Shown piece by piece: positions 38,225 through 45,543 of a stretch of 45,543 nucleotides of DNA (position 1 is the stretch's first letter; the number at the start of each line of letters is the position of its first letter). The notes under the pieces are model-generated. The model searched no databases, had not been told where the DNA came from, and saw only the letters and a list, made by a program, of their open reading frames with translations. Position numbers and translations under genes: made by a program. This DNA is from Egibacteraceae bacterium (GTDB lineage: Bacteria > Actinomycetota > Nitriliruptoria > Euzebyales > Egibacteraceae). The stretch covers positions 25,884-71,426 of the forward strand of contig JBBDQS010000154.1 of the NCBI GenBank assembly GCA_040905805.1, in the 5' to 3' direction.

Positions 38225-38817
38225 GCCATCAACGCGGGCACCCGGGTGGAGGTCCGTGCCGCGGCCACCGCGGCAGGCAGCACCTACGCCGGCCTGGTCC
38301 GTCTGGTCGAGCAGGCGCAGACCGAACGCGCCCCGTTCGTGCGGCTGGCCGATCGCGCAGCCGGCGTGTTCGTGCCGATCACGCTGCTGGTGGCGGGACT
38401 GGCGTGGGCGTGGTCGGGAGATCCCGTGCGGGCACTGACCGTCCTCGTCGTCGCCACCCCCTGCCCGTTGATCCTGGCGACCCCGATCGCGATCACGGCT
38501 GGGATCTCCCGGCTGGCCAGGCGTGGGGTGATCGTCAAGGGCGGTGGGGCCCTGGAGACCCTGGCCCGCGCCGAGTACGTGCTGCTGGACAAGACCGGAA
38601 CGGTCACCTCGGGGCGCCGCGACTGGTCGAGGCGGTGCCCTTCGACGGGGCCGACCCCGACGAGGTGCTGCGTCTGGCGGCTGGACCAGTGTCCGCCCAC
38701 GTGTTCGGCGCACCGATCGTGCACGAGTCACGGGCGAGGGGTCTGGAGCTGAGCCTCCCCACAGAGGTGGACGAGAGCCCGGGGGCCGGCATCGCCGGAC
38801 TCGTCGATGTCGCGGCC
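38225..38817 (+). pseudogene. Truncated, frameshifted heavy-metal P1B-type ATPase
   Basis: Fragment of about 195 residues out of the usual 650 or more. It begins inside the actuator domain (INAGTRVEVRAAATAAGSTY), passes through two membrane helices with the ion-site motif ATPCPLILATPIAITAG, and reaches the phosphorylation motif LLDKTGTVTSG. A single-base shift near 38615 moves the sequence to the next frame (RLVEAVPFDGADPDEVLRLA, then LELSLPTEVDESPGAGIAGL), where it ends. The metal-binding N terminus, most of the P domain and the N domain are missing. It is flanked by two toxin-antitoxin pairs, consistent with an eroded accessory region. Confidence 0.85.
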
Positions 38818-39793: not shown

Positions 39794-40000
39794 GAGCAGT
39801 CTGTCTGTGGGGCAGGGTGTCCTCCCCGTTGGTGGTGCCGACCACCGCAGTCGTAGCGAACCCCGCGCCGCGATCGCCACCAACCGACTCCCAGCGGGGG
39901 TTGAAACCGTAGTTGCCGAAGCGGCGGGTCGGGACGCTCGACGATGGCTTGCCGCTCCTGGCGGGTGGTTGCCGGTCAAGCCCGATAGCGTGTGTCGCCC

Positions 40001-43000
40001 ATGCGGGAACGCGAGCTGCCACCAGGCCGGTACGACGCGGTCGTCGACCGCCGGCTTGCGGAGCTGGCCGCGCGGCTCGCCGGGCGGGCCTGGACCGACG
40101 ACCTCGACCCGGGCGAGCAGCCGACCCGCCTGGCGCACCACGTCGCCGACGTGCTGGCCCGCGCGCTGGGGATGCTCGACGACGCGGAGCGGCTGACGCT
40201 GGTCAACGAGCTCGTCGAGCGCATCGGCGAGGCCCACGCCGCGGTCCCCGGCCCGCCACGGCGCTTGGAGGCTGTCACAGCGCACGGAGTCGCCCGACCG
40301 CCCGCGGCGCCGGACATCCCCCTGTCCGCGCACGACCTGCTCGTCAACGCCCGCGGCGAGCCGCACCTCGCGGCCGAGCTGAAGAAGGAGCTCGCCTCCG
40401 CCGACCAGGTGGACCTGATCGTGGCGTTCGTGCGCTGGTACGGCGTGCGCCTGATCATCGACGAGCTCCAGGCCGCGACCGCCCGCGGCGTCCCCGTCCG
40501 GCTTTTGACCACGACCTACACCGCTTCCACCGAGGCCCGCGCGCTCGACGAGCTGTCCCGCCGCGGCGTCGAGATCCGCGTCTCCTACGACACCGCGGTC
40601 ACCCGCCTGCACGCCAAGTCGTGGATCTTCCACCGCGACTCGGGGTTCGGCACCGCCTACGTCGGCTCGTCCAACCTCACCCGCACGGCGATGATGGACG
40701 GTCGCGAGTGGAACGTGCGGCTGTCGCAGGCCAGCGCCGACGTGCTGTTCGCCAAGGTCGCCACGGTCTTCGACGCCCAGTGGGAGTCCGGCGACTACGA
40801 GCCCTACGACCCGCAGCGCTTCGCCGCCGCGACCGCGGCCGTGCGCGCACCCGACGCCGAGTCGGCCCTGTCAGGGCTCACCCTGAGGCCCTGGCCCTAC
40901 CAGGACGAGATCCTCGACGCGCTCACCGTGCAGCGCGACGTCCACGGATCGACGCGCAACCTCGTCGTCGCCCCCACCGGCACGGGCAAGACCGTGGTCG
41001 CCGCCCTGGACTACCAGCGGCTGGTGGCCGGCCACGGCGACCTGAGCCTGCTGTTCGTCGCCCACCGCGAGCAGATCCTCCGGCAGTCGCGGCGCACCTT
41101 CCGGGAGGCGCTCGGCGACGGGTCCTTCGGCGAGCTGCTCGTCGGCGGGCACCGTCCCACCGCCGGCCGCCACGTCTTCGCCTCGATCCAGACCCTGTCG
41201 TCGCCCGAGGCGCGCGGCCTCCTCGGCGACGCCTTCGACGTCGTGGTCGTCGACGAGTTCCACCACGCCGAGGCCGCCACCTACCGGCGGCTGCTCGACA
41301 GCCTTGATGCGCGCTGGCTGCTGGCGCTGACCGCCACGCCCGAACGCGCCGACGGCCTGGACATCCGCCGCTGGACCGACGGGCGCACCGCCTTCGACAT
41401 GCGCCTGTGGCACGCCCTGGACCGCCAGCTGCTCGCCCCCTTCCAGTACTTCGGCATCGCCGACGTCGTGGACTACTCGACGGTGCGCTGGCAGGCCGGC
41501 CACTACGACCTCGGCGACCTCGGCGCCCTGCTCACCGGTGACGACGCCCGCGACCGGCTGGTCGTGCGCCAGGTCGAGCGCATCGTCGGCGACCCCCGCC
41601 GGATGCGCGCGCTGGGGTTCTGCGCCACCGTCGAGCACGCCCACGCGATGGCCGCGCTGTTCGACCGGGTCGGCTGGCCGGCGGTGCCGATCGACGCGAC
41701 GACCGCCCAGCACGACCGCGAGCGCCACCTCGCCGCGCTGCGCGCGGGGGAGCTCGCCGCGATCTTCTCCCGCGACGTGTTCAACGAGGGCGTGGACATC
41801 CCCGAGGCCGACACGATCCTGCTGCTGCGCCCCACCGAGTCGGTGACCGTGCACCTCCAGCAGCTCGGCCGCGGGCTGCGCCGCCACCGCGACAAGGACG
41901 TGTGCACGGTCCTGGACTTCGTCGGCCAGCACCGCCGCGAGTACCGGCTTGACCTGCGGCTGCGGGCGATGACCGGGATCTCGCGCCGCGAGCTCGTCGC
42001 GGCCGCCGAGCAGGGCTTCCCCTACCTGCCCTCGGGCTGCCACCTCGAGCTCGACCGCCAGGCCCGCGAGTGGGTCGTGGCCCACCTCAAGGAGGCGGTG
42101 CTGGTCAACCGCCGGGCGCTGACGCGCGAGCTCGGGCTGCTGGCCGCCCAGCAGGAGCGACAGGTCGCGCCGCCGCTGGCGACGTTCCTCGACGAGGCGG
42201 GCGTGGAGCTGGCCGACGTCGCCAAGGTCGGCGGGTGGGCGGGCCTGCGGCGTGCCGCCGGGCTGGAGCAGCGCCCCGCCGGCGCGCACGAGGCCACCCT
42301 GGCGAAGGGCGTCGGCCGCGTGCTGCACCTCGACGACGTCGAGCGCCTCGAGCAGCTGGCGTCGTGGCTGCGCGCCGGCCGGCCGCCGGTGCCCGCCGAC
42401 GACCGCCAGCGGCACCTCGCGTGGATGTTCCTGGTCACCATGTGGACCCTGCGCGCCGCGCCCGACGACCTCGACGCGGCCTGGCGCGGGCTGTTCGACG
42501 CGCCAGCGGTCCTCGACGAGCTGGTCGAGACCCTGCCGTTGCTGCGTGAGCGCATCGCGCGGCCGTCGATACCGCTGCCCGACGCCGAGGTGCCCTTGCG
42601 GTTGCACGCGACGTACGCGCGCGACGAGATCCTCGCCGCGTTCGGGCGGCTCGTGCCGGGGGTGCGCTACAGCCACCAGGCGGGCCCGTGGTGGCACGAG
42701 CCCGCCCGGACCGAGGTGCTGTTCATCACCCTGGCCAAGACCGAGCAGCACTACTCGCCGACGACCCTGTACCGCGACTACGCGATCAGCCGCGAGCTGT
42801 TCCACTGGGAGTCGCAGAACGCCACCCGGGTCGACTCGCCCGCCGGCCGGCGCTACCTCGAGCAGCGCCGCAACGGGGTGCGCATCCTCCTCGCCGTGCG
42901 GACCGCGCCGAAGGACCCGTGGGGCGCCACCCGCCCCTACGTACTGCTCGGCCCCGCCGACTACGTCGAGCACCGCGGCGAGCGGCCCATCGCGATCACC

Positions 43001-43063
43001 TGGCGGCTGCGCAACCCGATCCCCGCCGACCTCTACGAGGAGTTCAAGGTCGCGGCGGCATGA
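40001..43063 (+). CDS. PLD-nuclease / superfamily 2 helicase / DUF3427 protein
   Basis: 1020 residues from ATG 40001. An N-terminal helical region (about 1-115) precedes a phospholipase D-type nuclease domain with RLHAKSWIFHRD near residue 204 and YVGSSNLTRTAMMDG. A DEAD/DEAH helicase follows: Walker A APTGTGKT near 326, DEFH near 417, ALTATPER, and motif VI QQLGRGLRRH near 622. The C-terminal 380 residues match the DUF3427 region, with TEVLFITLAKTEQHYSPTTL and FHWESQNATR near the end. Proteins of this build occur in defence and mobile regions and probably cut or remodel nucleic acid; no specific system can be named. There is only one PLD motif, so it may need to dimerise. Confidence 0.9.
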   Translation: MRERELPPGRYDAVVDRRLAELAARLAGRAWTDDLDPGEQPTRLAHHVADVLARALGMLDDAERLTLVNELVERIGEAHAAVPGPPRRLEAVTAHGVARPPAAPDIPLSAHDLLVNARGEPHLAAELKKELASADQVDLIVAFVRWYGVRLIIDELQAATARGVPVRLLTTTYTASTEARALDELSRRGVEIRVSYDTAVTRLHAKSWIFHRDSGFGTAYVGSSNLTRTAMMDGREWNVRLSQASADVLFAKVATVFDAQWESGDYEPYDPQRFAAATAAVRAPDAESALSGLTLRPWPYQDEILDALTVQRDVHGSTRNLVVAPTGTGKTVVAALDYQRLVAGHGDLSLLFVAHREQILRQSRRTFREALGDGSFGELLVGGHRPTAGRHVFASIQTLSSPEARGLLGDAFDVVVVDEFHHAEAATYRRLLDSLDARWLLALTATPERADGLDIRRWTDGRTAFDMRLWHALDRQLLAPFQYFGIADVVDYSTVRWQAGHYDLGDLGALLTGDDARDRLVVRQVERIVGDPRRMRALGFCATVEHAHAMAALFDRVGWPAVPIDATTAQHDRERHLAALRAGELAAIFSRDVFNEGVDIPEADTILLLRPTESVTVHLQQLGRGLRRHRDKDVCTVLDFVGQHRREYRLDLRLRAMTGISRRELVAAAEQGFPYLPSGCHLELDRQAREWVVAHLKEAVLVNRRALTRELGLLAAQQERQVAPPLATFLDEAGVELADVAKVGGWAGLRRAAGLEQRPAGAHEATLAKGVGRVLHLDDVERLEQLASWLRAGRPPVPADDRQRHLAWMFLVTMWTLRAAPDDLDAAWRGLFDAPAVLDELVETLPLLRERIARPSIPLPDAEVPLRLHATYARDEILAAFGRLVPGVRYSHQAGPWWHEPARTEVLFITLAKTEQHYSPTTLYRDYAISRELFHWESQNATRVDSPAGRRYLEQRRNGVRILLAVRTAPKDPWGATRPYVLLGPADYVEHRGERPIAITWRLRNPIPADLYEEFKVAAA

Positions 43064-43127: not shown

Positions 43128-43946
43128 CTAGGCCGAGGGTTGCCAGGCGGTGGTACTGGCCGAGGCCATTGCGGCCGTCACCCCACTGAGCCCCGCTGCG
43201 AGCAGCCACCATGCCGTGTAGCGAATGAAACGCGGCTTCGTGCGGCGCAGCGTCTCATGGCCGATCACCGCGAGCGTGGCCCAGACGATGATGCTCAACA
43301 AGTCGACATGCTGGAACGGCGCCGGGACGGGCGCGGACCACAGCGATACCGCGTTGACGAGCCAGACCAGGGCGGCCACCCCCACCGCCAAGCGACGCAA
43401 CCGGGTTGTCGTCGGGGATGGCGCGTGGTGCTCGGAGTGGTAGGTGCCGTCGGGGCACATGACCACCCACGTCAACCCGCGGGGGAACCCGCGCACCCGC
43501 GGCGGGGGACCGCACCAGGTGTGGGGGCGTCGCTCGTGACACCGCCAGCGCCAGCGGGCGCGCCGCCACACGTGGCCCATATAGTCGCCTGCTGACGGTG
43601 TTGGCTGCCGGTACCCGGTGGCCTGCGCCTCCTCGGGCTCACCCCAGCCACTCGTACCGGACGGGCCGCGGGCACCCGCGCCGTTCGGTGGGGGGCCGGG
43701 ATCGCTGCGCAGCGAGTCGGTGTCGCGGTCGCGCCGCTCGCGGGCGAGCCGGGCATCTGTGACCTGTCGTCGCTCCGCAGTCGCGATCTGCTCGTAGGCG
43801 AGGTTGATCCTCGTCATGCGGGCGCGGTCGGGCTGGCGGTGGCTGTCGGGGTGGTGGCGCCGGATCAGCTCCCTGCGGCGTGCGACGATCCTTGCGAGGT
43901 CGGCGTCCTCGTCGACGCCGAGGACGGCGTACGGGTTGCCCGTCAT
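43128..43946 (-). CDS. Membrane-anchored J-domain protein
   Basis: 272 residues from ATG 43946. Residues 4-60 are a J domain (NPYAVLGVDEDADLARIVAR) with the HPD motif at 32-34, needed to stimulate an Hsp70 ATPase. A Pro/Gly-rich linker and a Trp/Arg/Cys-rich patch (RARWRWRCHERRPHTWCGPP) follow. Three hydrophobic helices at the C terminus (about 190-270) would anchor it in the membrane. No DnaK or GrpE gene is nearby. The start overlaps the stop of the upstream 294-residue gene by ATGA, so the two products are probably made together. The type is a class III J protein of unknown client. Confidence 0.8.
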   Translation of the reverse strand: MTGNPYAVLGVDEDADLARIVARRRELIRRHHPDSHRQPDRARMTRINLAYEQIATAERRQVTDARLARERRDRDTDSLRSDPGPPPNGAGARGPSGTSGWGEPEEAQATGYRQPTPSAGDYMGHVWRRARWRWRCHERRPHTWCGPPPRVRGFPRGLTWVVMCPDGTYHSEHHAPSPTTTRLRRLAVGVAALVWLVNAVSLWSAPVPAPFQHVDLLSIIVWATLAVIGHETLRRTKPRFIRYTAWWLLAAGLSGVTAAMASASTTAWQPSA

Positions 43947-44827
43947 CGGCCCGACGTGGCGCTCGGGTTCGCCGGCGCCCGGACTGGTCCATGCCAGGCG
44001 ACGACCTGCCAGGGCTCGTGTCGGATTCGCGCGCTCTCGGGCGAGTGGTGCCAGAGCGCAGGGCCGGCCATCCCGCTGGCGTACGGCACGCCGCGTGAGG
44101 CCTCGGCGAAGGAGACCCAGTGGCCATCGAAGAGGTAACAGCTGTACCGCTCTTCGTAGCGGTTCGCGACGATGGCCGTGGTGGCATGCAGGCCGGCGCG
44201 CTCCGGCATCCGCCCCCTTGATACGAACGGTTCCAGCAGGTGACGCTGGGTGCCCGCCGGCAGGTTCCCCAGGTATGGCGCGACGTCGACCGGGACGTAG
44301 CGAGCGGTGCCCGCGGCGAGCTGCAGCCCGGCTCTGTCGGGCCGGCCGCCCGCCGGGGCGCCCGTGTGAGGTCGACCCGCGCTCAAGTGGGCCGAGCGAA
44401 TCCGTGTGCCGTCCACCGGCCGCGCCCACCGGGTTCCTCCCCATGAGGCCCCCGTGCGATCGTCTAGGGCGGTGGTGGTCCCGGTGGCGACGGCGAGCCC
44501 GCCCTTGCCGAAGAGCCAGAGATCGTAGGTCGCGCACCCCTGTACGGGGCGTGCGGCTGCAGTGTGGTCGACCCGGCAGTGCCGATATCGTCGTGCGGCG
44601 CGCGTGCGCCAGTCGCGGATCGGCGGTCCCGCGACCTGCTCGGCCCATGCTCGGAGGTCGGCTGGCAGCAACGCCCAGCTGTCTTCCTCGGTCAGGGTCC
44701 TGGCCGAGTACTCCATGGGGGACCCCGTCAGTGCCCCGTCCCACTCCCGTGCGGACGGAACATCGCTTGACTGTTCGATCTCGCCGGAACGTCGCGTTCT
44801 GCGGAATCGCTCGAGGCCTGATGCCAT
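43943..44827 (-). CDS. Unrecognised 294-residue soluble protein, coupled to the J-domain protein
   Basis: The start is ATG 44827 (MASGLERFRRTRRSGEIEQS), preceded by AGGAGG; an upstream ATG at 44875 has no such site. No membrane helix or signal is seen. The middle contains WLFGKGGLAVATGTTTALDD and WARPVDGTRIRSAHLS, the C-terminal half PVDVAPYLGNLPAGTQRHLL, ERYSCYLFDGHWVSFAEASR and GPALWHHSPESARIRHEPWQ. I recognise no family. Two cysteines (HCRVDH and GCATYD) and many Trp and His are present. It is the first gene of a two-gene unit transcribed toward the helicase gene. Confidence 0.7.
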   Translation of the reverse strand: MASGLERFRRTRRSGEIEQSSDVPSAREWDGALTGSPMEYSARTLTEEDSWALLPADLRAWAEQVAGPPIRDWRTRAARRYRHCRVDHTAAARPVQGCATYDLWLFGKGGLAVATGTTTALDDRTGASWGGTRWARPVDGTRIRSAHLSAGRPHTGAPAGGRPDRAGLQLAAGTARYVPVDVAPYLGNLPAGTQRHLLEPFVSRGRMPERAGLHATTAIVANRYEERYSCYLFDGHWVSFAEASRGVPYASGMAGPALWHHSPESARIRHEPWQVVAWHGPVRAPANPSATSGR

Positions 44828-44917
44828 CCAAGGTCCTCCTCTGCCCGGTCGTGGGCGGTTTGGACCGTAGGCCATGGTTGACGCACGTTCTGCCCGCTAC
44901 GGAAGATCCTGTGGATA

Positions 44918-45111
44918 ACGGGGGTGCCGTGGATCGGCAGTGCTCCGCCGGCATTGGTGTGCGTGCGCGGCAGCGTCACCTTCCATACACCCGGCGGCGA
45001 CGTCGAGCTCAGCGCCGGTGACCGTCTGGAGCGCAAGCCGCACACCCGCACAGCGCGACGGTCGGTGCCGAGGGCGTCACCTGTGTGGAGGCGGCAGCCG
45101 GGGCGGCGTGA
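44918..45111 (+). pseudogene. Truncated, frameshifted cupin-domain gene
   Basis: The plus strand reads APPALVCVRGSVTFHTPGGD and VELSAGDRLE in one frame and then PHSATVGAEGVTCVEAAAG in the next, joined near 45033. Together they make the C-terminal two thirds of a small cupin domain (the G-D-x-x-x-P-P-H-x-x-H pattern is split at the shift). The N-terminal strands are missing. Its TGA overlaps the GTG start of the next small gene, so the two were probably once translationally coupled. Confidence 0.6.
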
Positions 45112-45239: not shown

Positions 45240-45364
45240 AGTGGCGACATGTGGTGCTCGCGACGTGCTGATCGCCCACCTGCGCGGACACCCCCAGGCG
45301 TCTTCTCCCCAGGCCAGCGGCGGGGTGCTTGCCGCGATGCTGCGGGTCGGGCCATGCTGGGCGC

Positions 45365-45543
45365 ATGACGACCGCTGAGCCCGTGCGCACCCGGCCGCTG
45401 TACCGGTGGGAGTACGAGGCGCTCGGCGAGCAGGGCTACTTCGCCGACGAGAAGGTCGAGCTGCTCGACGGGCGCATCGTGCTCGCCGCCGACGAGGGCA
45501 GCCCGCACGCGGCGGTCCTCCGACGGCTCAACCGGATCCTGAT
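45365..45543 (+). CDS. Uma2-family (DUF820) putative endonuclease, N-terminal part only
   Basis: ATG 45365 opens a frame that runs off the window after 59 codons. The visible part reads YRWEYEALGEQGYFADEKVE, then LLDGRIVLAADEGSPHAAVL, matching the beginning of Uma2/DUF820 proteins (the YEALxExGxFxxxRVELLDGxI pattern and SPxHA). These have a restriction-endonuclease-like fold and are abundant in cyanobacteria and actinobacteria, but their role is not established. The catalytic PD-(D/E)xK residues would lie beyond the window. Confidence 0.8.
   Translation, partial: MTTAEPVRTRPLYRWEYEALGEQGYFADEKVELLDGRIVLAADEGSPHAAVLRRLNRIL

Follow-up and report, generated by a model that had tools for sequence, protein, structure and literature searches.

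The window, by which we mean the whole stretch of 45,543 nucleotides of Egibacteraceae DNA that was analysed, carries on its minus strand two genes which the sequence supports as a translationally coupled unit. The first encodes a predicted soluble protein, P0001, which has no relative in the genomes, phages, plasmids and viral contigs searched, and the second encodes P0002, a J-domain protein with three predicted C-terminal membrane helices. Our preferred reading, tentative and held at a little below an even chance, is that of a lineage-restricted accessory pair in which P0002 would be a membrane-anchored class C co-chaperone and P0001 most likely its dedicated client or regulator.

Results

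Two coupled genes on the minus strand

The window is the end of a contig of 71,426 bases, and the source genome comprises 3.6 Mb in 166 contigs. The contig stops 716 bases beyond the start of P0001, at window position 45543. The two ORFs run from 44827 to 43943 (P0001) and from 43946 to 43128 (P0002), and Table 1 lists these and the associated features. At the junction, with the sequence CCGATGACG, the TGA of P0001 overlaps the ATG of P0002 as ATGA. Directly 5' of P0001 we found AGAGGAGGACCTTGG-ATG, which contains the ribosome-binding site AGAGGAGG, and an AGGAGG at a comparable position precedes only 7 of the 815 ATGs in the window. Both the overlap and the strong ribosome-binding site of the first gene, as given in the original prediction, are therefore confirmed by the sequence. 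A scan for promoters and terminators found nothing, as is expected from the consensus used at 72% GC.

Table 1. Coordinates of the gene pair, its signals and the neighbouring helicase gene in the window.
Feature	Position	Strand	Basis
P0001, soluble orphan protein, 294 aa, first of the pair	43943..44827	-	ORF; AGAGGAGG 7 nt before ATG; codon frame -1; no membrane helix predicted; no family; no relative
P0002, class C (type III) J-domain protein, 272 aa, three predicted C-terminal membrane helices	43128..43946	-	Pfam DnaJ; HPD; hydropathy; model
ATGA start/stop overlap of P0001 and P0002	43943..43946	-	sequence
Ribosome-binding site AGAGGAGG and spacer, upstream of P0001	44828..44842	-	sequence
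PLD-helicase-DUF3427 protein, SauUSI-like type IV restriction	39992..43063	+	Pfam; PADLOC mREase_IV, E 1.1e-252

Since long open frames arise easily at 72% GC, frame use was tested by a codon model trained on the clear genes of the window. Frame -1 is the best in every window across P0001, and frame -2 is the best in nearly all windows of P0002, with one tie near 43380-43559; the change from -1 to -2 falls where the genes overlap. The scores, 0.02 bits per codon for P0001 and 0.09 for P0002, are positive but weak and lie well below those of the native-looking genes of the window. Such weak codon bias is common for imported or young genes.

P0002 is a J-domain protein with a predicted membrane anchor

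Residues 4-63 of P0002 match the Pfam DnaJ model (PF00226, E 9.3e-9, 35.7 bits against a cut-off of 27.8). The HPD motif is intact (HHPD, residues 31-34) and lies between helices 13-31 and 41-80 of the single-sequence structure model. Hydropathy gives three membrane helices, 186-204, 211-229 and 245-263, in agreement with the helices 178-202, 216-233 and 238-266 of the structure model, whose confidence is moderate. Therefore, the intact HPD and the three C-terminal membrane helices described in the original prediction both stand, the helices as predicted ones. P0002 has neither the zinc finger nor the CTD of DnaJ, and the NCBIfam DnaJ models score far under their cut-offs. With a J domain as its only domain match and a predicted membrane anchor, P0002 belongs with the class C membrane J proteins.

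Arg and Lys are found on the N-terminal side of helix 1 and in the loop between helices 2 and 3, with none in the other loop or at the C-terminus. According to the positive-inside rule, charged flanks mark the cytosolic side, and the J domain is therefore predicted to be cytosolic, where DnaK is. No relatives were found for the tail of P0002 outside the J domain, as was the case for P0001, and a search of the whole protein against plasmids and viral sequences returned nothing.

P0001 has no relatives in the sets searched

P0001 matches no family in Pfam, NCBIfam or PADLOC, which agrees with the earlier statement that the partner of P0002 belongs to no known family. Relatives were sought in the order (30 genomes), in the class (66 genomes) and in the phylum, the last with about 790 genomes, of which 396 were spread across it and 394 came from a further class; these searches returned only the query itself or spurious matches. 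The best match in the phylum (L020, E 1.6e-4), for example, sits in an amidohydrolase-like gene. The GTDB-wide scan, IMG/VR, phages and plasmids likewise contained no relative; those of the scans that used short peptide patterns would detect only close relatives. In all the sets searched, the P0001-P0002 pair occurs once, in one fragmented genome.

Comparison with the PDB gave two weak matches, both at chance level. Two PHROG matches at the C-terminus (phrog_14001, E 0.0096, and phrog_15405, E 0.036, both in region 215-283) were rejected as chance matches because the same profile also hits 3 of 198 genomes at E <= 0.01. No internal duplication was found. A divergent alpha/beta-hydrolase was also considered and rejected; P0001 lacks a GxSxG motif and does not match the J-coupled hydrolases of the lineage described below. 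Hydropathy predicts no membrane helix, effector signatures such as those of nucleases, NTPases or NACHT proteins are absent, and the single-sequence model (pLDDT 32) has no interpretable fold.

The pair lies in an accessory region

The helicase gene of Table 1 is convergent with the pair and does not belong to the same operon. The region also contains a VapBC-like pair and a ParDE-like pair, so its description as an accessory region with a nuclease-helicase and toxin-antitoxin genes holds by Pfam and PADLOC. Between both toxin-antitoxin pairs lies a P-type ATPase fragment (38246-38752) that covers only positions 81-181 of the E1-E2 ATPase model (E 4.5e-19). On the other strand, immediately upstream of P0001 at about 44945-45106, is a cupin-like fragment without its 5' part, which reads CVRGSVTFHTPGGDVELSAGDRL, a frameshift, SATVGAEGVTCVEAAAGAA and a stop; it was recognised by eye and has no Pfam match. 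At 45329-45543 a possible Uma2-family gene begins and is truncated where the contig ends; its Pfam match is weak (E 0.055), and the sister genome has similar DNA in several places. From the toxin-antitoxin pairs and the gene remnants we conclude that the region is accessory and partly decayed.

The adjacency of the pair to defence genes was examined via the helicase. Homologues with E below 1e-100 are present in 15 of the 66 genomes of the class, and no protein like P0001 or P0002 was found near them at any of 12 loci of the class, within flanks of up to about 8 kb, some of the contigs being short. One of these 12 homologues is 83% identical to the helicase of the window. The adjacency of helicase and pair is therefore not conserved, and the helicase is probably an independent, unrelated tenant of the accessory region. 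In the sister genome the helicase gene is on a 5-kb contig with its C-terminal end cut off, and the empty-site comparison is thus uninformative. The location in one region with the helicase and toxin-antitoxin pairs is weak evidence of a shared function.

Other J proteins of the lineage are coupled to an upstream gene

Genomes of this bacterial family encode another J protein, whose gene follows an alpha/beta-hydrolase gene in the same orientation. The two lie side by side at six loci (L010, L015, L069, L070, L071 and L072), one of which, L072, is in the source genome itself, at C131. Membrane helices are predicted in the J proteins of L010, L014, L015 and L069, and the hydrolase and J genes overlap, or nearly so, at L010 and L015. 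At two other loci (L005 and L007), a short soluble J-domain protein adjoins a thioredoxin-like gene (WCGPC). Because J proteins stand beside an alpha/beta-hydrolase both in relatives and in the source genome, J proteins are ordinary here. Coupling of a membrane J protein to a gene upstream is likewise nothing unusual in the lineage, and that gene can differ in kind.

Discussion

The preferred reading draws on the J-domain match with its HPD motif, the three predicted helices and their flanking charges, the ATGA overlap, the ribosome-binding site and the switch of codon frame. Further support comes from the coupling of other J proteins with membrane helices to a different upstream gene in the lineage, from the orphan status of P0001 and of the P0002 tail, and from the weak codon bias. 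Under this reading, soluble P0001 would be translated just before P0002 from the same message. The J domain of P0002 would face the cytosol and stimulate DnaK, and Hsp70 activity would be concentrated on the cytosolic side of the membrane. P0001 would then be a dedicated client or regulator of P0002; alternatively, P0002 may serve membrane clients. We infer the recruitment of DnaK from what HPD motifs generally do, and gene order hints, weakly, at an interaction of P0001 with P0002. Counting against the preferred reading are the single occurrence of the pair and the P0001 model without an interpretable fold, and it leaves the linker of P0002 and zone 135-175 out of account. The original prediction proposed a membrane co-chaperone made together with a client or effector; the intact membrane J protein and the coupled genes were recovered, and for the role of P0001 as client or effector gene order is the whole of the evidence.

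If the link between the partners is true, the pair would illustrate, on a small scale, a co-chaperone produced jointly with its own client, and could help in studying how membrane J proteins acquire their specificity. At present it is an orphan pair in a single fragmented genome, and makes no open question directly testable.

The strongest competitor, which we consider possible but rather unlikely, is that P0001 merely travels with P0002 in translation, either joined to it by chance or as a de novo or decaying gene, and that P0002 alone is functional as a local recruiter of DnaK. The lack of relatives of P0001 among the genomes of the phylum that were searched, the weak codon bias and the ATPase and cupin-like remnants nearby all fit this, but a gene of that kind would not readily explain the strong ribosome-binding site, the exact ATGA overlap, the absence of stop codons and a codon signal along nearly all of P0001.

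It is improbable that the pair is a defence or toxin module, with P0001 as an effector that the membrane J protein restrains or, alternatively, switches on upon phage infection. The accessory region, in which a type IV restriction-like helicase accompanies two toxin-antitoxin pairs, would suit such a module, and there is a precedent in bNACHT25, whose phage sensing in E. coli needs the host DnaJ (PMC12169576). Against it, PADLOC matches no family for either P0001 or P0002, 12 loci have the helicase homologue and lack the pair, no copies are found in phages, plasmids or viral contigs, and P0001 has none of the effector signatures sought. The earlier suggestion of a defence or stress module is thus not borne out. 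A slightly less probable and very doubtful variant is that P0001 founds an undescribed family, as an effector or sensor under a dedicated membrane-tethered J protein, which would make the pair a chaperone-gated accessory module for stress or defence.

That the two genes are instead one protein of 608 aa from the ATG at 44954 is highly implausible: the P0002 frame is open up to that position, and composition shuffles reach at most about 362 aa (95% level), but throughout 43980-44880 each window of the codon model scores better in the frame of P0001 than in that of P0002, and the J domain would begin only at residue 337, behind an Arg/Gly/Pro-rich segment.

Comparison with known systems

DjlA has a single N-terminal membrane helix and a C-terminal J domain. 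As a class C (type III) protein it resembles P0002 in having an HPD-containing J domain without the zinc-finger/CTD body of DnaJ, and a membrane tether so that Hsp70 acts there. In P0002, by contrast, the J domain is N-terminal, followed by three predicted C-terminal helices, and the tail is without detectable relatives.

Among papers linking J proteins to phage defence, only those on bNACHT25 and on phage J proteins proved relevant. What the pair would share with bNACHT25 is the involvement of a J protein in a defence pathway (PMC12169576); however, bNACHT25 is a NACHT protein that uses the host's own DnaJ, whereas P0001 has no NACHT or other known domain. Phage RB43 encodes an accessory J-domain protein that acts through DnaK (PMC3486835). 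Both this protein and P0002 are accessory J proteins, but that of RB43 is phage-encoded and P0002 has no phage relatives among those searched. The helicase of the window is like SauUSI, a modification-dependent restriction enzyme that combines a PLD nuclease, a P-loop helicase and DUF3427 in one chain (PMC3874153), in having this domain architecture, and its homologues occur without the pair.

Further counterparts are the hydrolase-coupled membrane J proteins of the lineage. As in P0002, their J domain is N-terminal and of the same type (RRHHPD, RxNxAY), several of them have membrane helices towards the C-terminus, and a gene on the same strand lies upstream. In contrast, the alignment is confined to the J domain (E 1.1e-6) with no homology in the membrane tail, and their upstream gene is a hydrolase with GHS/GYSxGG, to which P0001 has no match. 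Since the J domain is all that they have in common, P0002 is a separate, divergent J protein, and the conserved coupling of hydrolase and J protein is a better subject for co-chaperone and client studies than the P0001-P0002 pair.
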